A stretch of DNA of 64,000 nt from Astropecten irregularis. Lineage: Eukaryota > Echinodermata > Asteroidea > Paxillosida > Astropectinidae. The stretch is taken from the NCBI GenBank assembly GCA_963971285.1, contig OZ020251.1, forward strand, positions 6,262,001 through 6,326,000, read 5' to 3'. Within the stretch, counting starts at the first letter, position 1. Each line of letters opens with the position of its first letter. The notes below the pieces were generated by a model. The model had not been told where the DNA came from. It worked only from the letters and a program-made list of their open reading frames with translations, and did no database searches. Below, piece after piece: positions 2,690 to 64,000 of the stretch. Made by a program: the position numbers and the translations under genes.

Positions 2690-2735
2690 ATGGAGGGAGC
2701 GGTAGCCTACGCTGTGCTGCTATCAACACTTACAG
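2690..2735 (+). CDS. Gene 1 exon 1: signal-peptide exon
   Basis: Fifteen codons plus one base (phase 1) before donor GTAAGC. The peptide MEGAVAYAVLLSTLT is a hydrophobic leader completed by VLAS from exon 2. The matching exon of gene 3 at 37662-37707 differs by one residue (L to V), and a dead copy lies at 28207-28252. Confidence 0.7.
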
Positions 2736-5700
2736 GTAAGCGTAAGGACTTTATTTATCGATGCATTATGCACGTAGGGCGGTACAAGTACCAATTAGCC
2801 AAGTTTTTTGAGTTGTTTGAAACTGCACTGTGCAAATCCCTTTGCTCAACACATGGTCAGTGGATGTAGGGCATAACAATGACTTCTTAGCACTGTGATC
2901 GAACGAAAACTTAATTGAACATCAGTCTGTGCTCAACTGTTCTAATGTTATTTGTCTGAAACTATACTGAGGAGAGCCAAATAATGTGAAAAACTAAATA
3001 CGGAATACGAAATTAATCTGAAGTCTCTAAATGTCATGTTATTCTGCATGGATAACAACAAGCTCAGTAATAGTTATTTCATTGATAGTTCAGGTCCATG
3101 TTAGCATATCGCTCAACTACAAGAATCATAACTACAACGCAATGTCTACTTGGCTAAGTTGTATGGATTGTTTTAATTAAGCATACAGTCTACCTTCCAC
3201 AAATGATTTAGCTTCAAATTGCTTATCGGCAAGAAGTTATCAGTGAAATTGAATCTCGAAAGAGATTTTTCTGACGGCCGTTTGCTATTCTAGATTTAGA
3301 ACGCGTTATTGGTGTTCTCGTTTTTATTCGTGTTTCGTTCGAGAATTTGTCGTAAGTGTTATTTCACTGTGCGGTTTTGATGAAGAACGAGTTAAGTGTT
3401 CAAATGGTACCAAACGTGTCGGTTTTAATGCATTTATGGGTGCAAAAAAGGTACTTTTAAAGTTGGTGCGGAAAAAGCAACTTCTTTGTTTAAAACTTAA
3501 CCTTTTCTTGGTGAAAATCTGGTGAAAATGTGCTTGAGAAACCTTGTAAGATTGATTATAGGGTCATTCCGTTTCAATTCAACGCGCTTTGGAACCTGAC
3601 CGACTCGGATTTCAATGAAATTTGGTATGCTTATTGGCCTCCATGAGAAACCCCCAGAACCAAAATTGTATGTAATTTGGTTAATTACTTTTTGAGATAC
3701 GGGTTAACGAACTTTTGACTAATAAGCACAATCTGTCGCATTTAAACAGCCATATCTCCAGAAGTAGAACCTACAGAAATAAATTTTACATCCTTCTAAA
3801 GCTCTGATAATGGCCTTCATTTTGTAAAATAAAACCAAATGTTTTTCATGTAAGACAAAAAAAATACGTTAAAATTTGACCTTTGACCTGGATTTTAAAA
3901 AATGCGTATTTTTCAAAATGCGTAATTGTTTTTTTTATTTTAGCTTGACATGTAAGTAACATCTCCAGAAAAATTTGGAGTGGGCACTCATATACTTTTG
4001 GAGTTATGATAATTTAAATTTCGGATTTCGAGGATAAAACCTGTAAATATGCATTAACATGTGCATTGTACATATACTTATGTGCATGTAATCCATTTAT
4101 AGTAATGCATATGTGCACAAATATGAGGTGTTTTGGCCTATGTAGCCCTTTTCAAGTAAGCATAACTACAAAACTGTACAAAAGACCATCCTTAATCTTT
4201 TAGATGTTGCTCTGGGCCTATATATTCGGGGGGGGGGGGGGGGGGGTACTTGAACTGTCAGCCAGGCATGTTAACTAACCTAGTCATCTCCATTCCATCA
4301 GAATTTGTTTTGTTGCAGATTTCATTTCTTTTGCAGACATCAAGTAAACATATCTGGTTTCTGTAACAGTTTCCACAATCATTACTATATCCTGAGAGTA
4401 TCTGTGTAACCTGAAGGAATTCACACTGAGCTTACAGTTTACCATTGTTAGCTGGAAGGAACAATCACTAGTTTGCTTAAATACACGATTACACATTACG
4501 TGATGCACTCTCAGAATAGTAACAATTGTGGAAACTTTAGTATTACAGAGACTAAACACATAAAAGATGCCTGCAAAGGAAATACAATTTGCAACAAAAA
4601 CTCTGATTGAATGGAGATGACTAGGTTAGGCCCTGTTTGTTTAATGCACAAGATCACGAATCCTGCGGATCCGGATCCGGATCCCATTTTAGCGTACCCT
4701 TTATAGGACCTTGATCCCCAAATCTGGGATCCTGTGCGTTAAACGAACAGGCCCTTAGTTAACATGCTTTGCTGACAGGTACACTAGCCCCCCCTCTTCC
4801 CGGAAGATATAGGGCCAAGTGTTTAGAATGCAGCAACATGTAAAAGATTTAGGATGGGCTTTTGTACAGTTTTGTAGTTATGCTTACTTGAAAATGGCTA
4901 GAAAGGCGAAAATACTTCATATTTTTGCACATGCATTACTATACATGGATTACCTGTACATAAGTATATGTACAGTGCATATGTAAATGCATATTTTCAG
5001 CTTTTATCCTTGAAATCCGATGTTTGAATTATCATAACTCCAAAAGTATATGAGCGCCCACTCCAAATTTTTCTGGAGATGTTACTTACATTTTAAGATA
5101 AAAAAAAAAAATTACGCATTTTGAAAAATACGCATTTTTTAAAATCGAGGTCAAAGGTCAAATTTTAACGTAATTTTTTTGTCGTACATGAACAAATTTT
5201 GGTTTTATTTTATAAAATAAAGGCCATTATAAGAGCTTTAGAATGATGTAAAATTTATTTCTGTAGGTTCTTTACTTCTGGAGATATAACTGTTTGAATG
5301 CGACAGATTGTGCTAATTAGTCAAAAGTTCGTTAAACTGAAGTAAAACAATTTAATGATATTTTTCAATTGCATGTTGTTGTATGATACTGTATGTATGA
5401 TCAGTGGGAAGGCCAACTCATACATGTCATAATGTTTGCCAAGTCGTACATGAATTGATCAACTTGTACGCAGGTCATACCATACATCATCAACCAAGTT
5501 GTACTTTTTTGTCTTTTATTTGTCAGTAAATTTTTTTATTTTTTTTATTTAAGAACATTTTAAAAAGAATCTACTGCCATCTCTGATGCAAGAACTTGAA
5601 ATCAGGACAAAAAGGCCAGCACTTGGCCATTACACGAATAATAAACCAGACAAAAACCTTCACGAAAGAAAAGAACGAAACAAACACCAAACAGCCAGGG

Positions 5701-14700: not shown

Positions 14701-17700
14701 TGCTATTACAAGAGGTCAATGACCTTTGACCTCAAATTGGAAGGTCAGGGTTTCATTGTAGAGTTCAAATTTTATTTTGGGTCTCCTTCCGGTGTGATTC
14801 TCTCCATTTTGACAACAATATCACCCTTTTACTATATTTTATTGCCTAGTTACAGGTGTTAGTGCTATTAGAAAAGGTCAATGACCTTTGACCCCTAGAA
14901 AAAGTACTTTCCCCACCCCCTACCCCACCTAACCTTTTTTTGGGGTAAATTTTGACACCCATACCTACTCAAATCAGTTGAAAAACCTTTTCATAATTTT
15001 TTTTCACAGATTGGCTATAAAAGTGGCTTATTTCGGGTTACTATGTGGTTATTATTTTGAAGAATGGATTTCATTTTTTACATTCGTGATGTACAAAGAA
15101 ATATAATTGCCATTGAAAAACTAAAATTAAAATAGCCACCATCGGAACTTGATCCATTAACTTAAGCAACATTTTATATTTTTATCTATCAGTGTTGGCA
15201 TCCTGTCATCAAGTCTGCTTCATCGGATCTGAGTACGACCCACGATCTGGTAGACCACCACGTTGGTTCTTACCGTACAAAGATCCCTGCGAATGTACTG
15301 CCATACGTCTTGGTGGGATGAACATCCCTGCGCCTGCGTACCTCAAGGGGGCGCCCTACTACCTGGACGGGCTGTTCATAAGTGAGGATGCAGAAGAAAT
15401 ACAATCAACCTTCGATTGCCAAACTGTGCAATCCGCAGGTAGTATTTTGTTTCCATGTTGGATTTTATGAAAAGTTAACTAAGACGTTTGATAGGATGTT
15501 ACTTTGACATAAATATATTATATTCCAGTGCGATTGAGGCATTAAAGGTAATATCATACTTTGGTTTTTATCAAAGAAATACAAATTCATGGGCAAAATA
15601 ATCAAAACAGATACAATAACAGTCAGCTGTGAAAATTTCAGTCCCACACGGTGTCCACTTTTTGAGAAAACAGTGAAAAATTACATTTTATTACTTCTTA
15701 AGGCTTTTATTTTTGATCTTTTAAAAGATCAAAAAAAAAGATTTTCGGTCGTTGTTTTACTTATTTCTGGATAAAAACACCGGAAACATGTTAACGGTAT
15801 GTTTCTACCTTCACCATCTTCATACCCTGTAAGTTATATGTAAATATGTGAACATTTCTGTTTTGGTATCTTAATAAAGTATGGTACTACCTTTAACCCG
15901 TAAGTATACTTCTGACTACGGATTTTATTTCAATGTTGAGTTCACTTATTTGAACTAAGTGCACACGGTGATTGAAGCTTTGTTACTCCAACCAAAATGG
16001 AAGTTGTCACTAAACCACATTTTAGACGGATATCAATTTAATCGAAAAATGTACCTTTGACGTAAGGGTAAGTTGCCTTTTGGGGAAAATCTTAACCATT
16101 CAAAGTTAGGTTTCTGTGATGTGAAAGGGATTGGAATTGATCAGGCTGATCATTGGCTTTTGAAGTTTGATGAGTACTTATTAATAGGCCTATTCAACAA
16201 AATGCATGAAAACACATCTTTGGCATAATATGTGTCCAGTGGTGCATTGGCGCTAAATTGCATCACATTTCCATGTCTTACTTGGTTGCGCTTTTTAAAA
16301 ATTGGCCAAGGCTAGGATGGATTTTGATTACTTGGAAAATACAATCTTAACCAATCAATTACCCTGGGTATTGTACTCCGAAATTAGACACTTAAGTCTT
16401 AAAGTCTTAAATCTACGAAATGGCTGTAGGATAAGTTGGTGGCTAAGTTAAGGAGGCCAAACCCTTTTTGAAAGGTAGTATCATACTTTGGTAAAAAAAA
16501 AAAAAAAAAAATGTTCACAGATTTAAGTATAACTTACAGGATATAAAGATTGTGGTGGTATAAACATACCATTACATATGTTCCTGCCCACTATCTGAAA
16601 AAGGGACTTAAACCAGAGCCTCCATTTTTTTTTGATACAGCTTTTCGTTTAACATCTTACCCACAAAAAAAGTCCGAAAACCGAATAATGGACCTTCAAA
16701 CACGCCCAACCCAAACCTAAATTCTGCCATTAATCTTTATTATTTTATTTACAATTTTTTTTTTTTGGGGTGGGGTTGGGGCATATTTGGTGCAAGTCTT
16801 TAAACAAATTATCACAATCAACGTGTTATTATGAGATTGAACAATACACCTAATGAAAATGAATGAATGTTTGCTTTTATTTTGGTTCTATTTTGTCTCA
16901 AATGCGAAGGTTTGCTGTATAGGCTTTCAGACAGTAATTCGGTTCTGTAATACATGTATATAAAACAAGAATGTTATTTTGGTTGCAAATTCTAGTTATC
17001 AAACTGCTCTGCACTGAATGAATTTAACAACGAATCTTAATTGTACCTTTATTTGGGATGTAATTCTTGTCTAGTTGAGTGCTCGGATCCAGAGCCTTTG
17101 GGCCTTGAAGACCGCACCATCCCTGATGAGCGTATGACTGCATCAAGTGGTTGGAGTGACAGGTTGGGAACCTTTCCTGCAAAAGGTGGTCGTCTGAACA
17201 ACCTGAACAGCTACTGGACGCCATGGCCGTATGTACCGAATAAAACATAATAAAGAATAGTACAGTCGATGACCAGCCAAGGATTACCATATAAGTATTC
17301 CATCGGTTGACCCAATTCACAAAGTATTGTATCATAGCAACCTTTTGATCTTTGTCCCTACAGGTACAGTGGTTCCTGGATCCAGGTGGAACTTGGTGAA
17401 CCTACATTGGTGTCAGGTGTTATCACACAAGGGGCTTCTGATGGGTATGATTGGCGCGTATTGAAGTACAAGGTGACATTCAAAAGGGATCACTCCTTCA
17501 CCCTTGAACACGTGATCGATGCCAATGGTGCCATTCAGGTATACACTCTTATCCGTTCTGTATTTTCATTTCATAAATGGAAAACAGAATGAGGAGGACC
17601 CGTAGACAGTTAATATCTAACGCTAAACGATTATTAGTGATGTGTCACCACGCAGGTATTCAACGATTAAGACATATTTAACAAAGCGATCGCTGTCGCA

Positions 17701-17946
17701 TTGGTTTTGACACGTGAATGTTACACGTATTACTTTACGGGGTGAAGGTATCTTTATAATATTTTGTGATCGTTGCTTTATCTTCAGGTGTTTGATGGCA
17801 ACGTAGATGATGCTACCACACCTGTCACCAATATGTTTGATCAGAGCATCAAAGCGGTTGTTGTGCGTGTCGAGCCGGTTGCGTGGAATAAAGGAGTTGC
17901 CATGCGACTGGAGCTACTTGGATGTTACATCACGCGCATGGAATAA
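2690..17946 (+). CDS. Gene 1 (type I): secreted protein with Cys-rich domain and F5/8 type C domain
   Basis: Proposed join of 2690-2735, 15193-15438, 17075-17228, 17364-17538 and 17788-17946, giving 780 bp and 259 residues. Order: signal peptide (about 1-19), an unrecognised 82-codon domain with Cys at about 20, 24, 48, 50 and 91, then one F5/8 type C domain from Cys100 to the Cys in the closing LELLGC motif, and a short tail ending RME. F5/8 domains are jelly-roll folds that bind carbohydrate or phospholipid, and a secreted lectin-like role is inferred. Every exon has GT/AG ends, consistent phase and an open frame, so the gene looks intact. Its 12.5 kb first intron is swollen by repeats. Gene 3 is the closest relative in the window. 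Main uncertainty: whether the distant exon 1 really joins exon 2; gene 3 supports it. Confidence 0.75.
2736..3703. other. Start of gene 1 intron 1, no feature until a repeat at about 3557
   Basis: No domain-bearing frame. From about 3557 (GGGTCATTCCGTTTCAATTC) the sequence looks like the outer end of the palindromic element that follows, but this outer part has no partner on the right side. Confidence 0.4.
3704..5335. repeat. Palindromic (foldback) element of about 1.6 kb
   Basis: Left arm starting TTAACGAACTTTTGACTAAT at 3704 is matched in reverse complement by the right arm ending at 5335. Matching continues inward with scattered changes to a centre near 4440, so nearly the whole stretch is one imperfect palindrome. 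The right arm is interrupted by a 126 bp miniature element at 4629-4754. A G run at about 4230-4247 in the left arm is reduced to a C run at about 4787-4795 in the right arm. No transposase frame is present. Confidence 0.85.
4629..4754. mobile_element. PIF/Harbinger-type miniature element with TTA target duplication
   Basis: Terminal inverted repeats start GGCCCTGTTTGTTTAA on the left and GGGCCTGTTCGTTTAA read inward from the right. It is flanked by TTA at 4626-4628 and 4755-4757. The opposite arm of the palindrome (about 4270-4283) gives the empty site, CTAGGTTAGTTAAC in reverse complement, confirming one TTA before insertion. TTA target duplications and GG-starting ends are the known pattern of PIF/Harbinger. 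A relative is at 39267-39385. Confidence 0.8.
5336..5773. other. Intronic, no feature recognised
   Basis: AT-rich. Several TCGTACATG/CATACATGT-like words recur at 5400-5500, possibly an old repeat. No coding signal. Confidence 0.35.
5774..6014. mobile_element. Miniature inverted-repeat element, 241 bp
   Basis: Ends GGGGCTTATTTCATAAAAC on the left and GGGGCCAATTTCATAGAGC read inward from the right, with inner TTAAGCACAAAAATTTGC-like and TTTGTGCTAAGCAGC words. No open frame and no clear target duplication. Elements of this look are, from memory, frequent in echinoderm DNA. Confidence 0.6.
6128..6331 (-). pseudogene. Ty3/Gypsy LTR-retrotransposon fragment (RT to RNase H region)
   Basis: The minus-strand frame contains SSGDGIGAILSQVQHGEEEV followed by a YGSxKLxRTxRNYxxxRxE pattern. 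This is the hallmark of the Ty3/Gypsy RNase H start, where D-S/G-x-GIGAVLSQ and GSRxLxxxERNY are typical. Only about 65 codons are left and no LTR was found, so it is a dead fragment lying in gene 1 intron 1, antisense to the gene. Confidence 0.65.
6430..9640 (-). pseudogene. Degenerate LINE (endonuclease-reverse transcriptase type), antisense
   Basis: Minus-strand frames, in order from 9608 down, show DWFDENVVHIQDLLAKKR; an RT start with LLTIADKVLTRLLLMNILIP, then QLSDSQCCFRNNMGT; VIQLHEDQRGQIRVSGDLSE, NNGAKQGCVLAKTLFGIFYS and the catalytic motif LLFADDAALVAQ; VSLKKTEVFHQP; NEVDNRLAKA, LLYGSEAWVPYR and LRTIPKIH; and a C-terminal LPKI/RSPKQG region near 6460-6660. Frames change several times and there are stops, so it is dead. 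About 1 kb of foreign sequence separates the block near 7965 from that near 6985. It belongs to the widespread non-LTR family with RTxLYGSESW-type C-termini; I do not assign a clade. Confidence 0.85.
6985..7960. other. Foreign insertion inside the LINE, with an internal direct repeat
   Basis: Conserved LINE protein blocks that should be adjacent (NNIGCTI and NEVDNRLAK) lie about 1 kb apart. Inside, a stretch of about 53 bp (GATATCAGCGAGCGGTGCAC onward to CATTCGGGGA) occurs at 7069-7122 and again at 7826-7879 in the same direction, bracketing about 700 bp of AT-rich sequence without coding content. Confidence 0.5.
9641..10504. other. Intronic, no feature recognised
   Basis: A 97-codon plus-strand open frame (9983-10276) and its antisense partner have no recognisable domain, and I treat them as chance or old repeat. 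Confidence 0.35.
10505..10680 (+). pseudogene. Small LINE reverse-transcriptase scrap
   Basis: Reading two frames gives YLLDGSLF, then HSQLIQHLIFTDAADLQ. This matches the spacing of the RT core (DGxLFN... followed by xLxFADDAAL) in the same family as the larger LINE copies nearby. Short and frameshifted. Confidence 0.4.
10840..10925 (+). repeat. tRNA-derived SINE fragment (B-box part)
   Basis: GTTTGAATCCCGCTCCAGT resembles a Pol III B box and is followed by TTCTTCGTTCAC, as in the fuller copy at 22603-22700. Confidence 0.4.
11532..12104. other. Left inner spacer of the 4 kb foldback element
   Basis: AT-rich, no gene, short AAT repeat at about 12070-12090. Confidence 0.4.
12105..12400 (-). 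repeat. tRNA-derived SINE, minus strand
   Basis: On the minus strand it begins near 12400 with a region of tRNA character including CGGGTTCGATCCCGGCTTGG (a good B box), then a body with TTTTCTCCGGGGTTTTCGGT and TTTTCCTCCCTTC. This body is typical of a widespread invertebrate SINE group. It sits just inside the foldback spacer. Confidence 0.7.
12595..14345 (+). pseudogene. Degenerate LINE (endonuclease-reverse transcriptase), plus strand
   Basis: Shifting frames give LDAGPTEELSKAIDCLSTG followed by IPLEVIKSGKDALLQDLHEL; SYRGISILNIIGKVFARVVL; SRVKQGCVLTPTLFWIFFSM; LQYLGSTIASNLSLEPEITA; a VWSNNNLTDNTKMQVNRACV-like block; and a C-terminal IPKNLLYGELA with DSCKRNLRG. These are reverse transcriptase and C-terminal blocks of a non-LTR element distinct from the antisense copy at 6.4-9.6 kb. 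Many stops and shifts; the usual FADDAAL motif is altered (IFADYATLAT-like). Sense to gene 1. Confidence 0.8.
15193..15438 (+). CDS. Gene 1 exon 2: Cys-rich domain of unknown family
   Basis: 246 bp, phase 1 at both ends (acceptor CTATCAG, donor GTAGTA). Encodes VLASCHQVCFIGSEYDPRSG, then a WFLPYKDPCEC core and IRLGGMNIPAPAYLKGAPYY, ending with FDC. The paralogue in gene 3 (39442-39687) has the same length with few changes, so it is under constraint. I do not recognise the domain family. Confidence 0.75.
15546..15892. mobile_element. TTAA miniature element, full length (347 bp), gene 1 intron 2
   Basis: TTAA at 15542-15545 and 15893-15896 flanks the inverted ends AGGTAATATCATACTTTGGT and AGGTAGTACCATACTTTATT (the latter read inward). 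It belongs to the family also at 19871, 20800, 22741 and 60003. TTAA target duplications are known for piggyBac and Kolobok groups; no transposase is present. Confidence 0.8.
16470..16620. mobile_element. TTAA-family miniature element, truncated
   Basis: Starts with AAAGGTAGTATCATACTTTG and keeps the inner words TGTTCACAGATTTA and ACTTACAGGATATAAAGAT. Its other end is missing. Confidence 0.65.
17075..17228 (+). CDS. Gene 1 exon 3: start of F5/8 type C domain
   Basis: Begins with the domain's first Cys: CSDPEPLGLEDRTIPDERMT then ASS, the classic CxxPLGxEDxxIPDxxxTASS opening. Acceptor TTGTCTAG, donor GTATGT, phase 1 in and phase 2 out. The loop after TASS (GWSDRLGTFPAKGG) differs completely from genes 3 and 4. 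Confidence 0.85.
17364..17538 (+). CDS. Gene 1 exon 4: middle of F5/8 type C domain
   Basis: SWIQVELGEPTLVSGVITQG followed by a LKYKVTFKRD strand, the standard WIQVDLGxxxxVxGVxTQG core. Acceptor CCCTACAG, donor GTATAC, exits in phase 0. Confidence 0.85.
17788..17946 (+). CDS. Gene 1 exon 5: end of F5/8 type C domain and stop
   Basis: VFDGNVDDATTPVTNMFDQS then VRVEPVAWNKGVAMRLELLG, closing Cys, and YITRME before TAA at 17944-17946. The FxGNxDxxTPVxNxF and LRxELLGC elements are hallmark. Acceptor TATCTTCAG is shared by all four paralogues. Confidence 0.85.
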   Translation: MFDGNVDDATTPVTNMFDQSIKAVVVRVEPVAWNKGVAMRLELLGCYITRME

Positions 17947-28117: not shown

Positions 28118-28138
28118 GATTGGCAAGCCATGACGTAA
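28118..28138 (+). promoter_or_regulatory. CCAAT-CRE pair upstream of the dead type I exon 1
   Basis: GATTGG at 28118-28123 and TGACGTAA at 28131-28138, about 70 bp before the relic exon. Confidence 0.4.
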
Positions 28139-28206
28139 TCAGTCAGTGTGGGTGATGCAGACTGTCATCAAACCAGCAGGTACGTGCGATTTCTGCTCAT
28201 TCTGCC

Positions 28207-28252
28207 AGGAAGAACTGAGTGAGCGGTAGCCTACGCTGTGTTGGTATCAACA
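28207..28252 (+). pseudogene. Relic of a type I signal-peptide exon
   Basis: GAGCGGTAGCCTACGCTGTG then TTGGTATCAACA matches exon 1 of genes 1 and 3. The ATG has become an ACTG-type sequence and the donor CAGGTAAGC is replaced by CAGGGTTGG. Start and donor are both lost, so this copy is dead. It lies 1.8 kb before the type II gene 2. Confidence 0.75.
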
Positions 28253-31109: not shown

Positions 31110-31396
31110 ACCCAACTACCGAGGAACCAATAACCAAGGAACCAACTACCGAAAAAACAACTACCGAGGAACCAACAACCGAGAAAACAACTACCATGGA
31201 AACAGCTACCAAGGAACCAATAACCGAGGAACCAACTACCGAGAAAACAACTACCGAGGAACCAACAACCGAGAAAACAACTACCAAGGAAACAACTACC
31301 ATGGAAACAACTACCATGGAAACAGCTACCAAGGAAACAGCTACCGAGGAACCAATAACCATGGAACCAATTAAGATTTTACTTGTGACACAATGA
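31110..31396 (+). pseudogene. Gene 2 Thr/Glu/Pro repeat exon, expanded, no donor
   Basis: Acceptor GCAACACAG, then about 18 tandem 15 bp units encoding TTEEP, TTEKT and TTMET-like pentapeptides. It runs into intron sequence and stops at TGA (31394-31396). Gene 4 has only about 5 units here. In secreted proteins such stretches are usually O-glycosylated stalks. Confidence 0.75.
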
Positions 31397-37661: not shown

Positions 37662-37707
37662 ATGGAGGGAGCGGTAGCCTACGCTGTGCTGGTATCAACA
37701 CTTACAG
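37662..37707 (+). CDS. Gene 3 exon 1: signal-peptide exon
   Basis: MEGAVAYAVLVSTLT plus one base, donor GTAAGC, identical in length and phase to gene 1 exon 1. Confidence 0.75.
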
Positions 37708-40700
37708 GTAAGCGTACGGACATTTTTGCCTGATGTATCACACACGTACAATGACTAACTGGTCAACTTTTCCTACATAATGTAGATACATATATATTAT
37801 ATTTAAGAAGATCTGCGTTTTCATGCAGTTGATGAAGTAATTCACCTCCTTTGGAAACCTGATTAACCAACGAAATACTCAAGCGAAATAATTCAATCGA
37901 TTATAAGGTCGAAAAGTCATGTTATGTTATGTGGAATGCGGATTTAAAATATACGTCGTAGGTAGCGTACGTATCTATGCATTTGAAATCCAGTGATCGA
38001 TTATCATGGAAACATGGCTTTCTGTGTGAATATACGGCCAACGTATCAACAGGCAGAATTCACCTTTATTGTATCGTTGATGGACATGTAGATCAACAGG
38101 AATGTGACGTGCATTTTATGACCCACAGCCATTATGGGTCTGAATTTTATGTAGCCGAAATGCGAGATAAGTCAACACAGAGTGCACTGTTTTCAATATT
38201 ATTCCCTATTTAATTCCGTCTTTGAAATGTTAATCCCGATATCGTACTTCATGTAAATTTAAAATAGGGTCGAATTTGATGTTATAACTTTGCAACTAAT
38301 ATCCGGTTGTGATGTAAGTTCCGCTTCCCACGAAACATCATAATGAAAGGGGAGCTAAGATTGTAGTATCATTCAGTAAAAGTTCCGCGACGTCCAACTA
38401 TGCTTCAAAAGATATTAGTCGTTAAACGTAATGTTTAGGGAAAGTTCTTCCATGAATTGTTGTGCTTTTAATGATTGATGATTGGATCCTGTTTCCGACA
38501 AATTTTTGCAGTTTGCTGTTGTTCTAAGACGGTTTCCAATGTTTCCGATTCAATATTTTCTGGTACGGAGCCCCTAAGGGGAAGGGCCAAAAAATTTGAA
38601 ATATCTCGAAATAATAATTTCGTTTTCACAAAAAAACTATTTCTTTCCCTCGAAATACTAATTAATTCTCTCGAAACAATTTCGTTCCTTCAAAGTATTA
38701 TTCAATTCCCTCGAAACCATTTCGTTCCCTTGAAATATCAATTCGAAGGAAACAAAATAAACACTACTTGGTTCCCTCTAAATTAGTTCGTTTCCTCGAA
38801 ATTCTATTTCATTACCTAGAAATGAAACGGAATAAATCATTTCGAGGTAACGGAATCATTTTCATTTTGTTACCTCGAAATGATATTTCGTTCCCCTGAA
38901 TTGGATTTGCTTGTATGGAGCTTTTAGGAATCGATTGTCTTTTTTGATATGACATCTTTGGAAATTGTGGCAATACCGAGCGCATTTCGAGGGACAGATG
39001 ACAAAAATCTGGAAATAAGGGTTATATTATTAAAACTTTCGTATCATTTTTAATAGCCTCAATTTCGTATTTTATGTTCACTCTCGTTGATTATGTTCGC
39101 CATATTTGCCTGTCTTACAGGCCATCGCCAGATGATTATACATTCAAGACAGAAATAACTTAGAAGGGGGTTTATATCATGTCCCTCTTTATGCCCTGGT
39201 ATTACGGGGTAAATCTGTGAATACTACTCTTTAGCGATCCTGTACCGTGTTTTTAACTAACACATTGGGTCTGTTTGTTTAACGCAAGGGATCCAACATC
39301 TGCGTATCCACGTATATGCAGGGTACGTTCAAATGGGATGCCGACCAGCAGGATTCGTGATCTTGTGTGTTAAAAAAACAGGCCCTTTGTCGTTTGCACC
39401 ATCAACTAAACCAGGTATTTATTTCCATTTTTATCTGCCAGTGTTGGCATCCTGTCATCAAGTCTGTTTCATCGGATCGGAGTACGACCAACGATCTGGT
39501 GAACCACCACGTTGGTTCCTACCGTACAAAGATCCCTGCAAATGCACTGCCATACGTCTCGGTGGGATGAACATCCCTGCGCCTGCGTACCTCAAGGGGG
39601 CACCCTACTACCTGGATGGGCTTTTCCTAAGTGAGGATTCAAAGGAAATACAAGCAACCTTCGATTGCCCTACTGTTCCACCTGCAGGTATCATTGGTTT
39701 CCATGTCGGATTTCATGAAAGGTTGAATGAGACGTTTGAGAGTTTAAATTTAAAAACAATCAATTTCCCCCTGCTCTTCAATTATTGCATTGGTTACGTT
39801 TGGAATGACCAATTTAGTTTAAGATTATATGGCTCACATTTAAATGGCTCCATGGCACTTCCCCTGAATAGCAATATACCCAATATACCCCTATAAGGTA
39901 TTTACGTTAAGGCTAACCTGACTCCATTTCATATGTTGCACTAAACGTTAAAACCAAATGGGGGATCGGTCATTCGTTCATGCAGGTCCATTATTTTGGA
40001 ATAAAGTGCCATTAGACTTTCGGGAAACTCATAGTAAAGTAAAGAGTCATCGCTTGATTTTTTTCGTACAAGTAGTATGTTCTGCTGTTTACATGTATAG
40101 TTCGACAAGCACTGTTCCTTTCCACTTTTCAAGCACTTTCAACATGTTTGTGGATATTGCACAATCCAGGAAAAATGAAATTTAGATTTATCGATGGATA
40201 AATTTAACAATATATGACACTCATTTGAAAAGCCTAGTTCCTCAAAGCAAAGCAAAGCAAAGTTATCAAAAAGTCGTTTGCACAATGATAGTTGAGTTTC
40301 AAAGAAAGAATAACATTAATCAAAGTATATTCCTGTCCTTTCAATTATAGTGATGCCTCAGTCAGGAAAATTGAGTAAGGGGTAACTGAGAAATCCTGCC
40401 TTGGAAGATGGATTAAACTTCCATGCGTTTGTTAAAGAAACGTACAACTTTCATTTAAATCGTTCAGCATTGACGATCAGACATACATAAATTAACTGTC
40501 CCCACATGCTTTAAGAATATTTCATGAATACCAGTGCTCGCCGCCGCCTTCTCACTTTTCAGACTGTTCACCGCAGCCCTAGTTTCCAGGAACGTAGGTG
40601 GATCACAGCCGATCGGTGGGTCAGCATCCAATGGTGAATCCGAGATATTCAGAAGCACATTTTACCAGAATGATGAATGTTTTTATCTTTAAAGAAAATC

Positions 40701-51943: not shown

Positions 51944-52304
51944 ATGGATATCGTCAAATTTACCATAGCCCTTTTAAAAATTATAGTCTCGGTAACTGCT
52001 GTCGGATTAGACAATTCACGTCAACCTCAATCTGGATCAAGAGAAGAGCAAATAGTTTTTTACCGTGGCCCAAAGCCAGATCATGCCTTTCGTGGGACTG
52101 GAAGTGGTTATCGAAATGAAACCAAACGCTCCTACCTGACATGTGCCGCGATGTGCCTACGGGATGATGCCTGCAAATCCTTCAACTTCTGCAAAGAAGT
52201 CAAGCGCTGTGAGCTTAACTCCGCGGTCTACGCCAAGAACATGAGTGACCTGCTGTTCGCCGAAAGCTGTCTTTACTTCGACGAAGGGTTTCGCCAGCCC
52301 CAAG
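51944..52304 (+). CDS. Gene 4 exon 1: signal peptide and PAN/apple domain
   Basis: 120 codons plus one base. Signal MDIVKFTIALLKIIVSVTAV; PAN-like region about residues 38-113 with Cys67, 71, 77, 83, 89 and 109, in a CxxxCxxxxxCxSFNFC pattern followed by CELNS, typical of PAN/apple folds. Donor GTAAGA. Gene 5 is the nearest intact relative. Confidence 0.85.
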
Positions 52305-55300
52305 GTAAGAATTGACTCCTAAGGGTCAGCATTCAAAATATCATACAAACAGATAAATAACACATATTAAAACATTTCCCGATCAAGACTTTCCTGTGTC
52401 TATGTCCCAAAAGGGGAGCAATATACAAGAAAACAAATTATGCCTTTACAGGAAAGTTACAATAATTCTCCTAATTCACGATGCCCTAGTCCAATTTTAC
52501 GGCCCTGTTTCACAATCATTGGATAACCAAATGTCTGTCTTAATAAAAACAGCTTAAAAAACGCAACAGCATGTCGGGAACAACTATGTTAAATTTAAAC
52601 TGTTTATCACTTCAAGATTCAGATATGAGAAAACCATGTCTTGGCTATCACCATGTAGAATTCAAGCAAAATGGGTGAAAATATGACCAATTGAAAGAGT
52701 ACTCTTTCCAAACAAGTTTTGAGGCTGTGTAATTCAGTCTTAGTTTTTTCCTTCTACATGGTGATAGCCAAGACATGGTTGTATCACATAAAATTATATG
52801 AATCGTGAAGTTTAATTGTCATGTAATACAATGTGTTGCGTTATTTTGGGGACACCCTGTATACATAATCAAAAATGAAAACCACTTTGATTTTTAAAAT
52901 GATTAACTCTGCAAAATATGAATCCATTTTGCTGTGTATGGTATGAATTAAGCTCGGCCACGTGTTTCTCTTTTGACATGTTTGTTTCACTTTGTTTCTG
53001 CAAAACAGACCCAACTACCGAGGAGCCAACTACCATGGAACCAACTACCGAGGAGCCAACCACCAAGGAACCAACTACCGAGGAGCAAGGTAAGGTAGAC
53101 ATGACCATAACTTTAAAAACAAACAACTGAAACAAATGGTTTGGAAACAGGTGTTAGTTATTTTTGTTTTGGGCAAACTAAGCACTAACGAACATGGCCC
53201 TATCCTTAAAAGCCAAATTAAATAAAATATAATTTCACTGCATACCACGAAAAACATACAAACTAAAATTGGTGCTTATGTCCTTGTAAAATTTTTAAAT
53301 AGCCTGCTAAACACTCAATCGATTGAGTAGTGTTCAAATGAGGCTTGCACTTTTCCTTTCACTCGTGATCATTACACGATACTGATTTATAAAGTACTCG
53401 AGTCCTCTCACGACCTTTTTCGGTTAAAGAAAACAAAGACAAAGCTCAATCGGATCGGTTTTATGCAAGTTAGGCTTGCGGTACACGAACAAAGAAATAG
53501 CAACGGATTGATACTGGTTGAGCATAATGTGCATACTGACTCTAAAGAAAGCTACAATTAGTAACAAGAAACAGCTAAACAGTGCTGGAACGTTTCAAAA
53601 CTCCAAGTTTTCTTTTGTTTTCTTTGGGATGGGGTTCATTCCAGTTTATAAAAAATGTAGCCTTGCCAAAGTTTATTTCTTTCTGGTGGTGTGCTTTTAT
53701 TAAGAATGTTGCAGTAAAACTAACTACCATCATAATTTCAGAGAATCAAGTACTGGGGCCTGTTCAGATTTTACATGAGACACAATGACAAGCGTCGTTC
53801 GAGTGAAAGTCTGAATTTCTGGTGAAGGTGAATTTCTTCTTGCTGATGTGCTTTTTATGTTGTTAGCAAAACTAACCACCATTGCCAATTCATCAGATCT
53901 TAATGCGACCTAAATTCGTCGAGAAATATTTGTAGATATGGCTCATTATCCCAATGGTGTCATAGTGTTAGCGATTGCGTTGTCATTTATGCTAAATTGA
54001 TATTTAATTGTTTGTAGTTTTTGCCTAAAGCAGAACAATCTTTATATTCTTTTCAATTTGGCAATAAAAAGACTCAAAATAAGTATTCACAATAATAACA
54101 ATGTAACATGTATCATGTCCACACCATGTTCAGACTTACATGTGACGCACCGACAAGTGTCATTTAATTCAAAGTTGTATGAGTTGAAACAAATAAATAT
54201 GTTTAACATCAACAACTTCTATAAAATAATATCTTCATTGAGGAATATTTTCGGCCCCTACACGGAACTATAGTCACAAACTTGTTCCACATTTTGGTGC
54301 GAGAAAAGTTCTTCATTTATTAATTGCGATAAAAACGTGACCAAGTTCATTGATACCCTCAATCATATAGATGTCAGGTGAAACTTGTTCCACATCATAC
54401 AGCCTCAGCTCTGAGTTCCGAGACTCTTTTTAGGGGGTTATAACATTGAATGGAGTTTTCTGTAATACGTCTTCATTTTTACCTCACCTTTACTTCATTT
54501 CATGATTTTCCATGCAATGCAATAAAACCCAGTTCACTTTTACTTTTAGATCATCGGCTTTGTTTTCCAATTCTAAGCTGCTTCGAAACCATGGTATGAA
54601 ATATGGCTTATAGGAATATTTTTTTAAATACATGTAGCGCAAAATATTTCATGAACACAAAAGTTCATATGTGTCTAAATGTTGAACACAATGTGCAGTG
54701 CTTCATACTCCATTTAATGCAAACATTTGTGGGGGGAAAGGCAATTGTCAATACATTCATAATATAATTTCACTTTCCAGATAAGTCATTTTCACAGTAG
54801 AGCTTATTCCGGTCTTACGCTCTTCCGGTCTGAAGTTGAAGTTGATTGTAATTTTGCAATTTTTTGGGGCGATATACTTTGTAATACTTGGTTAGGACAA
54901 AAAACAAGCATGTACATTGGAGGAACGTTTGTCACCGTTTTAGCTAGAATAACACATCTGACATGTGTGTATACAAAAATACAAAATTGTATTTGTTATC
55001 AGCTATAGCAGGTATATACAATTTCAGCAATACACCAGATGCAACGCACGTTTTTAACTACTGAGGGTGTCAACAGGTTTGCAGGCAAATTGCTAATCAG
55101 TACGTAAAGAGCAAACAGATGTGTCTCGGTGCCCCGTCCCTGTGTGTTCAGTGCCCTTTGTTGTGTGTATTTCCCTCAGCGAAAAAACGACGACAAAACA
55201 AGGTTTCGTTTCGAAGTGTTTTTATTACTAAATGTTACACCCAAAGGGTACAGGTATATGCTTTACGGTTTTTGAACACAGTGAAATAAACTGTCAAGAC

Positions 55301-58300
55301 CAGTGAGGTGTATTAAGAAAGAAACATGTCAATTTAACCTGTCTTAGGAGAGATAGGCTGGAGGCTTTGGGGATGTTGGTGACTGGCAGTCACCTTCCTC
55401 CACCCATCCACCACAATAATTCAATAAGTGTGCAAAATAATTACACATAGACTGCTATAAAGTGTAAATGAGACATGGCAAATTCTAAATTGACGTTTCA
55501 TTTAGCTATGAAGACATCATGCTCCTTATATTCGGTTTCGACAGGCACTTTGCTCGTGTTAAGTTTGCCAACATTATGCCGACATAATATGAAAAAAGTT
55601 CAGACCATAAAAATCGGATTAGGGGGGTTGCGTTTTTGAGAAAATATGCAGAATGGGGATGAGGAGAACATTTCCTTGCTGGATGAAATGAAGAAGAAAT
55701 TTACTGCAGGCCAGTAGATGAATAGTATGGACATAGGAGACATGGAGAAATTTAGAGGTGACAACGTGACCCCATCATGGCCAAACTTACCCAAGACGTT
55801 ATTTTGTTTAGCAAAAAAAAAAGGAAAAAACTCTTCCCCAATCAAGCACATGGCAAGATTTTTTGTAGGTTGTATAAAATGTAAGCTTTAAATCGTTCTT
55901 AAGTTCCAGTCTTATGAAAACTTAGTTTTCAATCGTTCAGAGTTGACTTGTTATGTAAGTGTCACTGTTTCATATGTAATACATGAAAAACATGAGACCT
56001 AAATTCTTTTTGATCTTTTAAAGACACACATGTTTTTTGAAAGGCCACAAAGTAACCGCGCAATTCGAATAACAGATCTGGTGTGATCTTATTCCTGTCA
56101 GAAACAAAATACATGTACGAGACTGTATACTTTTTCATCATTTATAGGAAGTTTATGCAATATAAGCAACTGCCCCTGATGTACCGCATGCTTCAGCTGC
56201 TGAAGGTATCTACAGGTTGGTAGGCAAATTACCAAATAGAGCGTGAAGAGCAAACTCACGTGTCCCTCTGTTGTGTTTGCTGAAAAGACCGAGACGTCTT
56301 CGGTGCCTTTTGTCGTGTGTATTCGACAATTTAACGTCTACCATTGTGTGTATCCCTCTGTTTAAAATATACTGTTTTGTGTATTCCGCTGTTTAACTCT
56401 CTATGAAAACGACGAAGGAACAAGGTTGCAATTCTTTTTCATTGATATTCCGCCCAAATGGTCTATACGGTTTTTGAACACAGTAAAATAAACATAACGG
56501 CGAAGACCATTACCAATATTTGTCTACTGAGGCAGCATTAGATGAGACCCCTTCATGCTTCATGGAGACAGATGTGGAGTCGGCTCCGAAGCTCCCTCCT
56601 GCATACAACGAGGGGCCTTGACATTGCTCATTCACAATACATCGCTTGCCTAGTTTGTTCTGCGTTGCCTTCTTATAAACATTGCGCACATTCAAAATAA
56701 TGTGGCCATCCGCGTTCTTACGGTATGAAGAAAATGTATCGCAAAACCCTTCACAAAGACACAGGGATCTCTAAGTGACTGGACACTATATACAGGTGCT
56801 CGTCAGGAAGCTTACTGACATTTTGTTGATAACATGTTTATAATCATAATAATGTCCATCTCATCCAGCCCACGGCTTTTTTTGCAGCATTTAATTATTA
56901 TTTCTCCTCTGTCTTTAACTCATCGGGTCTTGTTCCAGACAACCCATCATCCTGCCCGTCACCCACCCCCGAGTTATCGAAGATTTTTCGAATGTGCAAA
57001 TAATATTTGCTCTCAAAAACCTACCCGTTGATAAACCCCCTGGCCCTGATGGTGTCATATCTCGGATTTTGAATCAGATTGCTGTGTTCATTTGTCAGCC
57101 ACTATACGTGTCTGCTGTTTAATATGTCTCTCAGCAGTGGTAAAATTCCTGATACCTGGCAATGTGCTAATATCACTCCATGTTTTCAAAAAATGAGAAA
57201 AGTCCGTCCTGGAAAATTACAGGCCGGTTGCTCTTACATCAGTCTTGTGCGAAGTACCTGAGGAAGTTGGCGCATCGGCCATAAACGATCATGCAAGTTA
57301 GTTTGGCCTAATGAACAGAAATCAACATGCCTTTACAAAACATCGTCGCTGTGTAACTAGTTAACGTTTTACACCAGTGGGCATCTCTCCTTGACCGACC
57401 GCGCCCTCTCTGTATCGATGCTGTTTTCTTGGACATGTCCAAGGCATTTGACAAGATGCCGCAAGGTGCCCTGCTTGAAAAAGTGGCTTCGTGTTTTAAC
57501 ATCCGATGTACCATTGGGTCAGATCCTTCTTAACGAACTGCAAGCAACGTGTGATATTCCAAAGTAGTGCTTTATCTTGGGGAGATGTTTCCTCTGGTGT
57601 CCCATATGGGGGTGTTTTAGGTCCAACTTTCTTCAACTTATTTGTTTATGATGTCTTCAGCAATGTTTCGTCTGTGTTAGATTTGCTCATGATGCGCAGC
57701 TGCTCTTTCTCGTGTAATAGATTCACAGATAGACTAGCATCATCTCCAGACTGATCTTAATAAGCTTTTGTATAATAGTCACTCCGTAATCACATAATTT
57801 TCAATCAGGCGCGGTTCTACTGGGGACTAGGGTTGGGGGGGTTGGGGGCTGCGGCCCCCCAAAAAAATTCTAGTGTGCCTCAAGTAGATAGCTCTGTTGG
57901 TAAGAGCGCCGATGCGGTGTTTTCGGGACTTTAAAAATAAAAGGCACACTTGTGTGTTTGTCACAAACACTTAAAGACTTCTGGATCATAATAACAAATT
58001 TTATTTGTTAATTGTGTGGATGCGATTTACAACTTCGGTTTTTTTTTAGATTTATAAATGTTTGCAAAGCTTTAGCAGAGAATGATTTACACAATTATAA
58101 TTACTTGCGTTTCTACTTTTCTATTGTTCACTCTGCGTGATTAGCTGAATGTTCGGTTCTGATACCTTTGGGCCTGGAAGACCACACAATCCCCGATGAG
58201 CGTATGACTGCATCGGTTGCTTGGGATTGCTGTCCAGCATCAAATGCTCGTCTGAACCATGACAGCTGGTGGGGAACCTTTAGGTGTGTACCGAGCATAC

Positions 58301-59753
58301 TTAAAGACGAATTACAGTTATAATGTGAAAATGAGTATTTTTTACCATCCGAAAAAACTTCGATAGACCCAATACAGGAAGTATTGTATCTTTTATAGTG
58401 GTTTCATTGTTTTTTTAAATTAGCTTTGAACATCACGACCATACATGAACGTCACAACGTGAAAAGTGTTTGGTTGTTTGGTTACTCCAAAAGAACGGTA
58501 AAAACATTGAATATATGAGAAAATGAAATGCATTTACGACATAAGTTGTAAATTAAATTACAATTTAAATCCACCGTCTACTTGGATAGGATAGCGCGTG
58601 TGGGTTAATGCAACTTGCCTATTCTGTGTTTGTTGCGTGAGACTCGTATTGAATATTGTTTATCCTTGTTCCTACAGCGCCGAGGGTTTCTTTAGGCCTT
58701 TTCACACTATCCAAAATCTCGGGGTTGGAACCGGATCGAACCCCGAGATTTTTTCAACCCTTTTCACACTTGAACATTTTCAACCCCGAGCCAACCCGGG
58801 TAGGACGGTCTAGCCGGATCGAAATCAACCCTGGTAGGGAGCAGGGTTGAAAATCTCAACCCGGTTCCAAACTGCATTTTGCGCCATGTGACGCGTGATC
58901 TGTGTTGTATGAACCGGTTCACCATAAACGTAGTGTGAACATTGCATCTCTTCAATCCAGTTCGAAAACTTGCTGGGCTGAACCGGGGTGGATCCGGGTT
59001 GGTTTCAACACGGATCGAAAAGGAGATAGTGTGAAAAGGCCTTATATCGAGGTAGACTTGGGTGAACCTACATTGGTGTATGGTATTATCACACAGGGTA
59101 AAACCGCGCATCCTCGACGCGTAACAAAGTACAAGGTAGTTTTTAGGAAGAATCACTCCTCCGAGCATGAATACGTGACTGGTGACAACGGAGACGTCAA
59201 GGTATAATAATAATACAATTACAAATCAGATTTGTTTCTGCCGAGTACTCAACTTGAATAAATTATTTCTCTGAAAATTATTTATCATAATAATGGTAAA
59301 ATTTCAATGTGTTGTGCTTGTTCTAAAAACTAAAAAAAAAATTGCACTTTAGGGGTAATACGTCTTAAACATTTCCAGAAGACTTGACCTTCAATTCTAC
59401 CTTCCTGGCAATAAGCGTTTCATTTTCTAAATAAACCTGACATTATTATTTAGTTACTTCATTAGCGAAGATCGGTTTGTGAATGGAAAGTTGTCCACGG
59501 TTTGGTAGCCTGTCTGCGCTTAGAATCAATCGATATTTCGGCATATTGCCTTATATAAAATTAATCAGTTTTGTGATCGTTCCTTTATCTTCAGGTGTTT
59601 GATGGCAACGTGGATGATGCTATCACTCCTGTAACCAATATGTTTCATCAGAGCGTCGTAGCGGTTGCTGTGCGTGTTGAACCGGTTGCTTGGTTTGATT
59701 TTCCTGTCATGCGACTGGAACTGCTTGGATGTTACATCACGGGCATGGATTAA
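51944..59753 (+). CDS. Gene 4 (type II): PAN / Thr-rich / F5/8 type C secreted protein, exon 4 interrupted
   Basis: Exons: 51944-52304 (signal peptide and PAN), 53009-53089 (Thr/Glu/Pro linker), 58145-58283, 58678-59201 and 59595-59753 (F5/8 type C). Phases agree throughout with the other genes. Exon 4 contains a 347 bp miniature element (58695-59041); read straight through, the frame meets TAG in the element at about 58811. Removing the element and one TTA leaves 174 bp rather than the 175 expected for phase, so a one-base shift is also present. The gene makes the normal protein only if splicing avoids the element, for example through a new acceptor such as AG at 59028-59029, which would restore frame. 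Otherwise it is a recent pseudogene. All other exons are intact. Domain roles as for gene 1, with PAN domains mediating protein or sugar binding. Confidence 0.65.
52305..53008. other. Gene 4 intron 1, with a 29 bp perfect inverted repeat
   Basis: 52632-52660 (AACCATGTCTTGGCTATCAC onward) is the exact reverse complement of 52752-52780. Gene 2 has only the right-arm version (near 30848-30875), so the left arm and loop appear to be an added inverted copy. Confidence 0.7.
53009..53089 (+). CDS. Gene 4 exon 2: Thr/Glu/Pro linker
   Basis: 27 codons, phase 1 both sides; five TTEEP/TTMEP/TTKEP repeats; acceptor AAAACAG, donor GTAAGG. Probable O-glycosylated stalk between the PAN and F5/8 domains. 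Confidence 0.75.
53090..55049. other. Gene 4 intron 2, first part
   Basis: 53760-53890 is homologous to gene 2 at 31370-31490, and 54720-54890 to 32400-32540. No exon seen. Confidence 0.45.
55050..56510. repeat. Direct duplication, about 1.15 kb apart, within gene 4 intron 2
   Basis: 55050-55310 and 56180-56510 share ACAGGTT-GCAGGCAAATT-like, GAGCAAAC-GTGTC, TTTGTTGTGTGTATT-like, ACGACGA-CAAGGTT and TACGGTTTTTGAACACAGT words in order. Between them, antisense frames (55600-55851 and 56510-56695) have no recognised domain. Confidence 0.5.
56840..57740 (+). pseudogene. CR1/Jockey-like LINE fragment in gene 4 intron 2
   Basis: Shifting frames give KPPGPDGVISRILNQIAVFI, LSSGKIPDTWQCANITPCF, NYRPVALTSVLCEV-like, NRNQHAFTKHRRCV, DMSKAFDKMP-like, SSGVPYGGVLGPTFFNLFVY and then a broken FADDAQLLF region. 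That is a reverse transcriptase core with several shifts and stops. Sense to gene 4. Confidence 0.8.
57741..58144. other. End of gene 4 intron 2, with a SINE-like A-box scrap
   Basis: GATAGCTCTGTTGGTAAGAG at about 57887-57906 resembles a Pol III A box, preceded by a G/C-rich GGCCCCCCAAAAAAATTC stretch. Fragment only. Confidence 0.4.
58145..58283 (+). CDS. Gene 4 exon 3: start of F5/8 type C domain
   Basis: CSVLIPLGLEDHTIPDERMT, then ASVAWDCCPASNARLNHDSW and WGTF. Acceptor GTGATTAG, donor GTGTGT. Carries an unusual CC pair in the loop. Confidence 0.8.
58678..59201 (+). CDS. Gene 4 exon 4: middle of F5/8 domain, split by a transposon
   Basis: Acceptor TTCCTACAG is intact and matches gene 2. 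After 17 bp the element intervenes; coding resumes with YIEVDLGEPTLVYGIITQGK and YKVVFRKNHSSEHEYV, donor GTATAA. The usual Trp before IEVDLG is Tyr here because of the changed junction. Confidence 0.6.
58695..59041. mobile_element. PIF/Harbinger-like miniature element (347 bp) inside a coding exon
   Basis: Ends GGCCTTTTCACACTATCC on the left and GGCCTTTTCACACTATCTCC read inward from the right, flanked by TTA at 58692-58694 and 59042-59044. Inside, TCAACCC and GGGTTGA words recur in both orientations. TTA duplication and GG start fit PIF/Harbinger. Confidence 0.8.
59595..59753 (+). CDS. Gene 4 exon 5: end of F5/8 type C domain and stop
   Basis: VFDGNVDDAITPVTNMFHQS, then VRVEPVAWFDFPVMRLELLG, closing Cys and YITGMD before TAA at 59751-59753. 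Confidence 0.85.
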   Translation: MFDGNVDDAITPVTNMFHQSVVAVAVRVEPVAWFDFPVMRLELLGCYITGMD

Positions 59754-62364: not shown

Positions 62365-62725
62365 ATGGATATCGTCAAATTTACCATAGCCCTTTTAAAA
62401 ATTATAGTCTCGGTAACTGCTGCCGAATTAGACAATTCACGTCAACCTCAATGTGGATCAAGAGAGCAGCAAACACGTTTTTACCGCGGCCCAAAGCCAG
62501 ATCATGCTTTTCGTGGGACTGGAAGTGGTTATCGTAATGAAACCAAACTCTCCTATCTAACATGTGCCGGGATGTGTCTGCAAGATGATGCCTGCAAATC
62601 ATTCAACTACTGTAAAGAAGACGAGCGTTGTGAGCTTAACTCGGCGGTCTACGCCAAGAACATGAGGGACTTGCTGTTCGCCGAAGGCTGTCTTTACTTC
62701 GACGAAGGGTATCGCCAGTCTCAAG
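62365..62725 (+). CDS. Gene 5 (type II) exon 1: signal peptide and PAN/apple domain, gene continues past window
   Basis: 361 bp, donor GTAAGA, phase 1, like gene 4 exon 1. Signal MDIVKFTIALLKIIVSVTAA; PAN cysteines at 67, 71, 77, 83, 89 and 109, plus an extra Cys30 not present in gene 4. No stop or shift. Intron sequence at 63880-64000 matches gene 4 up to the point about 30 bp before its Thr-rich exon, so the linker and F5/8 exons are expected just beyond the window. Confidence 0.8.
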
Positions 62726-64000
62726 GTAAGAATTGACCTCCAAAGGGTCAGCAATCAAAAGATTATACAAATAGGTAAATAACAAATATTAAAACATTTC
62801 CCGATCCAAACTTTCCTGACTCAGTGTCCTAAAAGGGGGAGCTATATAAAAGAATATAATGCTGAAGACTTTCATCTTCGTTGGTTTCTTTTGATTTATT
62901 ACAATTAAAGAGCATCGACGACAAATTTACACCGTTGTCAATAACTTTAAAAGACGGTTAAATTTTAGTTGATATCCAATTGAATATTGACTTCCCTGCC
63001 TAGCGAAAAAATCGTTAATTGCAGTGTTTACTTCCATTACTAGTATACGGTTTTGGATTGCTCGCTTATTTGACTGTTTTCTTATGAATTCATACACCAC
63101 ATTTTAATTGTTCTTCCAGATCTGTGACTGTTTTTATCACCAATGAATCATTCTTAATCCTCGAAAAGCCGAATTGAACGGTTGAAAAACGCCCGGTTGA
63201 ATTTGTGTAAAGTAACTTAGCTAGATTTATTGTTTTAAGGCCGAGCATTTATGATCCTTAAGGATCATTGCGATCATAAATGATAAAATTGTGTTACTGT
63301 TCCCTCCACGGCCGGGTATAGCTCAGTGTGAACATTTCCTGTTAAAGCATAAACCAATGGACATAAAAAATACATAATATTATATTCAGTTTCTGGTCTT
63401 CTGGTATTGCAATTGAGGGTTTGTGAACATCACGGATTTCATAGTGTTTCTGAGTGATAAATCTCTTCCGTCTAATTATTTATATTCTTGGAACAAACAA
63501 TGGAAAACTTAAAAATTGATTAATGGAAAGGTGATTTTACAATTTCATAAATTAAAGTTGACACAGGTGGGCATTATTAGGGGAGTGGGTCGGAACCCGG
63601 ATCTTTGAGGGTTTACTCTTTAGACTCACTGGTATTATATTGTATTAAACATCCCTAAAACTCACATGCAAAATACCTACACGAGGTATACAAGTCATTA
63701 GACTTACCTTTCATTGTTCCGATTGATCTAAATTAATTTCAAAAATAAATAAATAAAACTAAAAGAGATACCTAAGTTAAAGTGACGAAATTCAACGCTT
63801 TTAGAAACCTATTCTAAACTGGAAAAATGGAGATGGATTTTATATTCAGAAAATATGCTTCCGTCAAAAGACTATATACTCTACATAATCAAAAAAAAGA
63901 AAACAACTTTGATTTTAGAAATGATTGACTCTGCAAAATACGCAATTTAGTTTTTAGTGTATGGTTTGAATCAAGCTCGGCCACATATATCTCTATTGAC
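62726..64000. other. Gene 5 intron 1 (partial)
   Basis: A small palindromic patch, TTTATGATCCTTAAGGATCA with a partner TGATCGCAATGATCC-type repeat, lies at 63248-63284. 63885-64000 is homologous to 52862-52980 of gene 4. No exon seen. Confidence 0.45.

Follow-up and report, generated by a model that had tools for sequence, protein, structure and literature searches.

Introduction

The systems closest to the locus described here are proteins with F5/8 type C (discoidin-like) domains, such as factor VIII (C1 and C2), neuropilin (b1) and lactadherin, the PAN/apple proteins, and two echinoderm groups, namely the Sp185/333 (SpTransformer) immune genes of sea urchins and the Asterias rubens proteins Sfp10, Sfp11 and Sfp12. 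The locus is a tandem cluster of genes in a 64,000-nucleotide stretch of the genome of the sea star Astropecten irregularis (contig OZ020251.1, here C15, positions 6,262,001-6,326,000, plus strand; hereafter the window). In this cluster one kind of F5/8 end is found behind either of two alternative heads, and the front and back parts of the same genes have different histories.

As in factor VIII, neuropilin and lactadherin, the F5/8 domain found here is complete, and its variable stretches lie at the positions of factor VIII C2 loops. It differs from those proteins in that a single F5/8 domain stands behind an unrelated head, and in that the loops differ in both length and sequence between copies. 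The likeness to PAN/apple proteins consists of PAN_1 matches above the gathering score in three gene models (g4, g5 and g6, described below); here, however, a single, weakly matching PAN domain is joined to one F5/8 domain, and the models are without a protease or kringle part. The Sp185/333 genes are a comparable echinoderm case, a large family that is clustered, contains repeats and has mosaic histories. They are two-exon genes with repeat elements of their own, whereas the genes described here have other domains and another exon plan, and the two families seem to be unrelated. Finally, the secreted Sfp proteins of Asterias rubens also include F5/8 domains and Thr-rich repeats, but there the two features are reported in different proteins, and neither a family of this size nor an exchange of heads was found in the accessible parts of the source (PMC9382459).

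Neither the domains nor the notion of large clustered families is new. No description of a design with two exchangeable heads, or of this particular family, was found in searches of the open-access PubMed Central (PMC) literature. Few large, diversified recognition families are known outside vertebrates, mostly from other groups. If confirmed, the present case would add a large family from echinoderms whose design is simple and testable, with slow heads, a fast binding end and an intron phase that permits swapping, and it is open to study with existing sea star genomes and RNA data.

One F5/8 end behind two alternative heads

Exons were found by tblastn and then bounded by means of splice sites and phases (Table 1). 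Units with a Cys-rich front of ∼ 80 residues are termed type I, those with a PAN front, with or without a Thr-rich stalk, are termed type II, and the F5/8 exons (e1, e2 and e3) are together termed the back. The window holds five such units on the plus strand (g1 to g5), in the order I, II, I, II, II, with two type I fronts and three PAN exons. In the type I plan (g1 and g3) a signal-like exon of 46 bases and a front exon of 246 bases precede e1, e2 and e3, and in the type II plan (g4) a signal and PAN exon of 361 bases and a stalk exon of 81 bases take their place. A common phase pattern with GT-AG sites is followed throughout: the signal or PAN exon ends in phase 1, the type I front and the stalk are 1-1, and the F5/8 exons run 1-2 (e1), 2-0 (e2) and from phase 0 to the stop (e3).

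A preliminary description of the window had proposed five plus-strand genes sharing a three-exon F5/8 domain. The five units and their order stand, but all three F5/8 exons lie within the window in only three of them, the complete models g1, g3 and g4. Unit g2 is a broken type II copy, because its PAN exon contains an in-frame TAA, its stalk repeat lacks the donor seen in g4 and g5, and it has no e1, neither tblastn nor blastn having detected one in the interval 31400-32703. Unit g5 continues beyond the window edge at 64000, with its stalk at 64049-64759 and its F5/8 exons at 67332-69788 (window coordinates). The stalk acceptor AG at the position used in g4 is lost in g5, and an in-frame AG 12 bases further on would serve. 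A sixth unit of type II, g6, follows g5, with PAN at 79401-79785 and F5/8 exons at 104312-106736 (window coordinates); a stalk was looked for in g6 and none was found. The frame is open across the joins in g1, g3, g4, g5 and g6. The preliminary description had called for a search for further copies on either side. Such copies are present to the right and in many other clusters on C15, whereas the 60 kb to the left of the window yielded none. The stalk repeat, a five-residue unit rich in Thr, Pro and Glu, spans 27 codons in g4 and 237 in g5, and its length may also vary between individuals.

The Pfam F5/8 family (PF00754) was matched by all five spliced models (g1, g3, g4, g5 without its stalk, and g6) at 51.2-73.2 bits against a cut-off of 28.2. 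PAN_1 (PF00024) exceeded its gathering score of 21.4 bits in all three type II models scanned (22.0 in g4, 24.3 in g5 and 25.6 in g6). Over its full length the spliced g1 back aligns with the factor VIII light chain (expect value, E, 3e-31), neuropilin-2 (3.6e-29) and lactadherin (5e-25). A Cys residue two codons into e1 and a final LLGC are present in g1, g3, g4, g5 and g6; the Cys residues near the start and end of an F5/8 domain form a disulphide pair. Exons, phases and Pfam matches agree with the earlier proposal of two alternative fronts, one Cys-rich and the other PAN with a Thr-rich stalk, on one F5/8 back.

In the libraries searched, the type I head has no counterpart among described domain families. 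No Pfam family was assigned to any of 18 members, and a sequence-profile search against a structure library gave at best E 0.08 or worse, in matches that were judged to be unrelated chance hits and that fell nearly all on the light chain of one listed toxin. An AlphaFold2 model from 18 rows reached a mean confidence (pLDDT) of 60.7, which is too poor for fold comparison. At the N-terminus of five models the Kyte-Doolittle hydrophobicity profile peaks at 1.74-2.21, compared with 1.48 or less later in the chain, and the family proteins are probably secreted.

Fronts and backs of the same gene have different histories

Fronts were compared with e2 and e3 of the backs by synonymous divergence (dS) with 2000 resamples, the full F5/8 domain being used for the g1-g3 pair. 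In g2-g4 the front dS is 0.109 and the back dS 0.621, and in g4-g5 the values are 0.221 and 0.708, with 0 of 2000 resamples reversed in either case. Fronts are also the closer part in g2-g5 (0.335 versus 0.580, P 0.045) and g1-g3 (0.240 versus 0.559, P 0.0065). The same division is seen at the level of nucleotide identity. A front block that reaches from ∼ 700 bases upstream to beyond the stalk, and that stops before the F5/8 exons, is 82-89% alike in g2, g4 and g5, whereas the back exon regions of these units are 70-76% alike by blastn. Because both values are far from haplotype level, the units of the window are themselves unlikely to be assembly artefacts, a possibility that the preliminary description had raised.

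That description had also suggested duplication of a I-II gene pair followed by extra type II copies. The fronts would fit such a history (dS 0.24 for g1-g3 and 0.11 for g2-g4), but the backs (0.56-0.62) do not, and the suggestion is rejected because the backs of both pairs are far apart and have closer relatives elsewhere. In a tree of 26 backs, six of them local (g1 to g6) and 20 from other C15 clusters, g4 groups with a gene at C15 8.26 Mb (100/99), g5 with g6 (91/85, below the level at which branches were starred) and g1, weakly, with a gene at 19.08 Mb (88/77).

The same tree contains one clade of seven type I backs and one type II back, and another of 14 type II and four type I backs, the latter including g1 and g3 (99/98 and 100/99). 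A single clade of type I backs is rejected (approximately unbiased (AU) test, p = 3e-5), and a PAN gene at C15 8.22 Mb is nested within a supported clade of otherwise type I backs. The best back tree has six head changes. In all 12 pairs of type I genes compared across the two back clades, dS is higher in the back than in the front, in eight of them with P<0.05. For non-synonymous divergence (dN), the front has the lower value in each of 21 type I pairs. Since the dS values of fronts and backs disagree, the type I backs are not one clade and a PAN gene lies inside a mainly type I clade, the fronts were exchanged or converted, with at least two head changes. The PAN head on the 8.22 Mb back needs an event additional to the type I transfer. 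The preliminary description had named differing topologies of front and back trees as a sign of shuffling or conversion, and a difference in history of this kind is supported both by dS and by the tree.

The dS gap could in principle reflect mutation or constraint that differs along the gene, and not exchange, given that codon usage or mutation rate can vary between domains and that short exons give wide intervals. This is very improbable: the sign of the gap varies by pair, the backs being older in g2-g4 and g4-g5 and younger in g5-g6, the non-coding parts of the front block track the front, and both head types are intermingled in the back tree.

The window is a small part of a very large family

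The genome assembly comprises 475.7 Mb in 168 contigs, of which C15 makes up 21.66 Mb (4.6%). A census of the family was taken across it; the best 150 candidates were scored in each search, so that each count is a minimum. With E up to 3e-20, at least 106 PAN fronts were counted, 86 of them on C15, and at least 53 type I fronts, 49 on C15 and four on C29. A further 97 type I matches listed have weaker scores (E 5.6e-16 to 4.1e-8) and are scattered over many contigs. On C15, clusters with more than a few units mostly carry both head types, though some have only one. The window is a small part of this very large clustered family, and one of many clusters on C15.

Heads and backs are also associated outside the window. 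On C15 a back exon was detected within 10 kb downstream on the same strand for 42 of the 49 type I fronts and 66 of the 86 PAN fronts, compared with four and none, respectively, on the opposite strand. Twenty other genes from C15 were retrieved, and all 20 retain the donor after e2 and the acceptor before e3. Among the 30 best single-frame F5/8 matches genome-wide, all of them outside C15, 26 are preceded on the same strand by a type I-like exon within the retrieved 3.3 kb. A more distant form of type I-like front with an F5/8 end is present on other contigs. In 29 of these 30 matches the region that is split into e1 and e2 on C15 lies in one frame, so that the e1/e2 intron marks the C15 kind.

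These data bear on the alternative that PAN with its stalk and the F5/8 exons are separate neighbouring genes that were duplicated together, and not one spliced gene. Such an arrangement would account for the long gaps between stalk or PAN and e1 in g4, g5 and g6. It is nevertheless improbable, since PAN, stalk and type I front all end in phase-1 donors and e1 starts with a phase-1 acceptor, since the median distance from front to first detected back exon is 865 bases for type I and 3961 for PAN, and since 26 of the 30 distant F5/8 matches have their own upstream head-like exon.

Two further features of C15 were observed. At 5.76-5.81 Mb five family exons repeat at a spacing of exactly 29,661 bases, which reflects either a segmental duplication of very recent date or a duplicate produced in assembly. 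At 18.20 and 18.24 Mb, e1 occurs without a type I or PAN head in the ∼ 2 kb upstream, and the region 17.7-18.9 Mb holds 30 e1 matches and 17 heads; another head type or headless copies may be present there. A third head was sought from the two 18.2 Mb backs and set aside, the copies being 97% alike even outside exons, so that no exon could be discerned.

Variable stretches coincide with loops of the F5/8 domain

The most variable part of e2 and e3 is the loop that follows TQG, with a mean entropy of 2.31 bits over eight columns compared with 0.91 over the 85 others (p 9e-5). This loop also varies in length between copies. A second variable stretch lies in e1, where the five residues that follow TASS (or an equivalent motif) are different in every one of the five window models, and g1 has four extra residues. 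The two stretches align with factor VIII C2 loops, which in that protein bind membranes.

A model for separate renewal of heads and backs

The exons, their phases, the copy numbers and the differing histories of fronts and backs are read directly from the DNA. The explanation preferred here, with moderate confidence, is that of a clustered family in which one F5/8 end is placed behind either of two heads, in which heads and backs are renewed separately, and whose products recognize microbes or surface and mucus glycans. Each gene would end in a single F5/8 domain encoded by three exons and entered, through a phase-1 intron, from either the Cys-rich type I head or a signal and PAN head with or without the Thr/Pro/Glu-rich stalk. 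Phase-1 introns flank the heads and stalks and also stand at the start of the F5/8 part, so that a head could be swapped to another back with the frame kept. Duplication, unequal crossing-over or gene conversion would have renewed heads and backs separately, and the front and back of one gene would therefore often differ in age. The exons would be joined in the mRNA and the protein secreted; the F5/8 end may bind varied sugar or lipid ligands by its variable loops, and the more conserved head may do a common job, such as assembly or an effector role. Of the possible uses, immune recognition by a secreted protein seems the likeliest. A wider claim is put forward only tentatively, namely that this sea star possesses a repertoire of more than 100 secreted recognition proteins, encoded largely on one chromosome and built on a constant-plus-variable plan, in which two slow heads and a fast F5/8 end are re-paired by conversion and unequal exchange across phase-1 introns.

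A different use is suggested by the footprints of Asterias, which contain the F5/8 proteins Sfp10 and Sfp11 together with variants of Sfp12 that are Thr-rich and probably O-glycosylated (PMC9382459). By analogy, an F5/8 domain with an O-glycosylated Thr-rich stalk could serve tube-foot adhesion or a mucus coat, with copy number providing dose and surface variety, and the Thr-rich five-residue repeat of variable length in g4 and g5 would suit such a protein. This is considered unlikely. The terms searched in PMC9382459 gave no PAN or apple domain for footprint proteins ('apple' being absent), type I genes are without a stalk, and more than 100 diverse copies would seem to go beyond what a structural glue needs.

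Several observations weigh against separate renewal of heads and backs, or limit how far it can be taken. The exon joins proposed here derive from splice sites, phases, order and homology, introns reach 25 kb (in g6), which makes some joins less sure, and no back was detected within 10 kb of seven of the 49 type I and 20 of the 86 PAN fronts on C15. Front and back dS do not differ significantly in g2-g6 (0.449 versus 0.466) or g4-g6 (0.345 versus 0.443), and in g5-g6 the sign is opposite (0.364 versus 0.183; 0.9665 and 0.948 of resamples). The 20 non-local genes in the tree were hand-picked for having front, e2 and e3 matches, and the starred branches force only two (protein) or three (DNA) of the six head changes. 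Head types are still clustered on the back tree (26 to 28 of 500 shuffles were as low, for type II rows), and type I fronts are split by back clade with weak support (75/86), so that a single old head transfer, later duplicated, is possible. Positive selection in the e2 loop was not shown, the pooled dN/dS being 0.37 in the loop and 0.49 in the core.

Features of the window and other observations

Table 1. Exons and related features of the gene cluster, in window coordinates.
Feature	Position	Strand	Basis or remark
g1 (type I) candidate first exon, signal-like MEGAVAYAVLLSTLT, phase 0-1	2690..2735	+	Paralogous copy at 37662; donor and phase fit
g1 type I front, Cys-rich, phase 1-1	15193..15438	+	Homology, splice sites; without Pfam match
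g1 F5/8 exon 1	17075..17228	+	tblastn, splice sites, Pfam
g1 F5/8 exon 2	17364..17538	+	tblastn, splice sites, Pfam
g1 F5/8 exon 3 with stop	17788..17946	+	tblastn, splice sites, Pfam
Decayed copy of type I first-exon region, 5' of g2	28126..28252	+	tblastn of the 2.6 kb segment; in-frame stop
g2 copy of type II front block (upstream region, PAN, stalk)	29319..31505	+	blastn 82-89%; in g4 47684-47942 and 51488-53896, in g5 from 61634
g2 (type II) signal and PAN exon, in-frame TAA	30056..30416	+	tblastn, splice sites
g2 Thr-rich stalk repeat, without donor, reads into stop	31110..31393	+	Sequence
g2 F5/8 exon 2	32703..32877	+	tblastn, splice sites
g2 F5/8 exon 3	33410..33568	+	tblastn, splice sites
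g3 (type I) signal-like first exon	37662..37707	+	tblastn, splice sites
g3 type I front exon	39442..39687	+	tblastn, splice sites
g3 F5/8 exon 1	41541..41679	+	tblastn, splice sites, Pfam
g3 F5/8 exon 2	42642..42810	+	tblastn, splice sites, Pfam
g3 F5/8 exon 3 with stop	43419..43571	+	tblastn, splice sites, Pfam
g4 (type II) signal and PAN exon, phase 0-1	51944..52304	+	tblastn, splice sites, Pfam
g4 Thr-rich stalk exon, phase 1-1	53009..53089	+	Splice sites, phase
g4 F5/8 exon 1	58145..58283	+	tblastn, splice sites, Pfam
g4 F5/8 exon 2	59030..59201	+	tblastn, splice sites, Pfam
g4 F5/8 exon 3 with stop	59595..59753	+	tblastn, splice sites, Pfam
g5 (type II) signal and PAN exon	62365..62725	+	tblastn, splice sites, Pfam; only g5 exon inside window

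The first exon is the weakest assignment in g1. It lies 12.4 kb before the next exon, compared with 1.7 kb in g3. Open pieces resembling the reverse transcriptase of long interspersed elements (LINEs) were recognized by eye at 6434-10465 (minus strand) and 12684-13665 (plus strand), inside the proposed first intron, and these fragments may account for its length.

The region upstream of g4 is interrupted by a 3.5 kb insertion (47943-51487), the corresponding site being intact in g2 and g5. Its inverted arms of ∼ 1.5 kb are 88% alike and consist partly of 51-base tandem units, so that it resembles a foldback mobile element. An intergenic tandem duplicate of ∼ 97% identity occupies 23354-28000, with a partial third copy near 44.7-45.9 kb.

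The mitochondrial contig (16,335 bases) reads AAA as Asn and ATA as Ile, COX1 giving FSTNHKDIG under table 9, and its gene order, COX1-R-ND4L-COX2-K with an inverted ND1-to-P block of ND1 and tRNA genes, is that of sea stars. Amphioxus was rejected as a source; a fluorescent protein of lancelet origin had no match, which on its own is a weak argument. Elsewhere in the assembly, a COX1 gene without TGA codons lies on the 103 kb contig C131, which suggests that a bacterial contig is included. A second COX1 stretch, with TGA codons, is found at C25:9951047 and looks like a nuclear copy of mitochondrial DNA.

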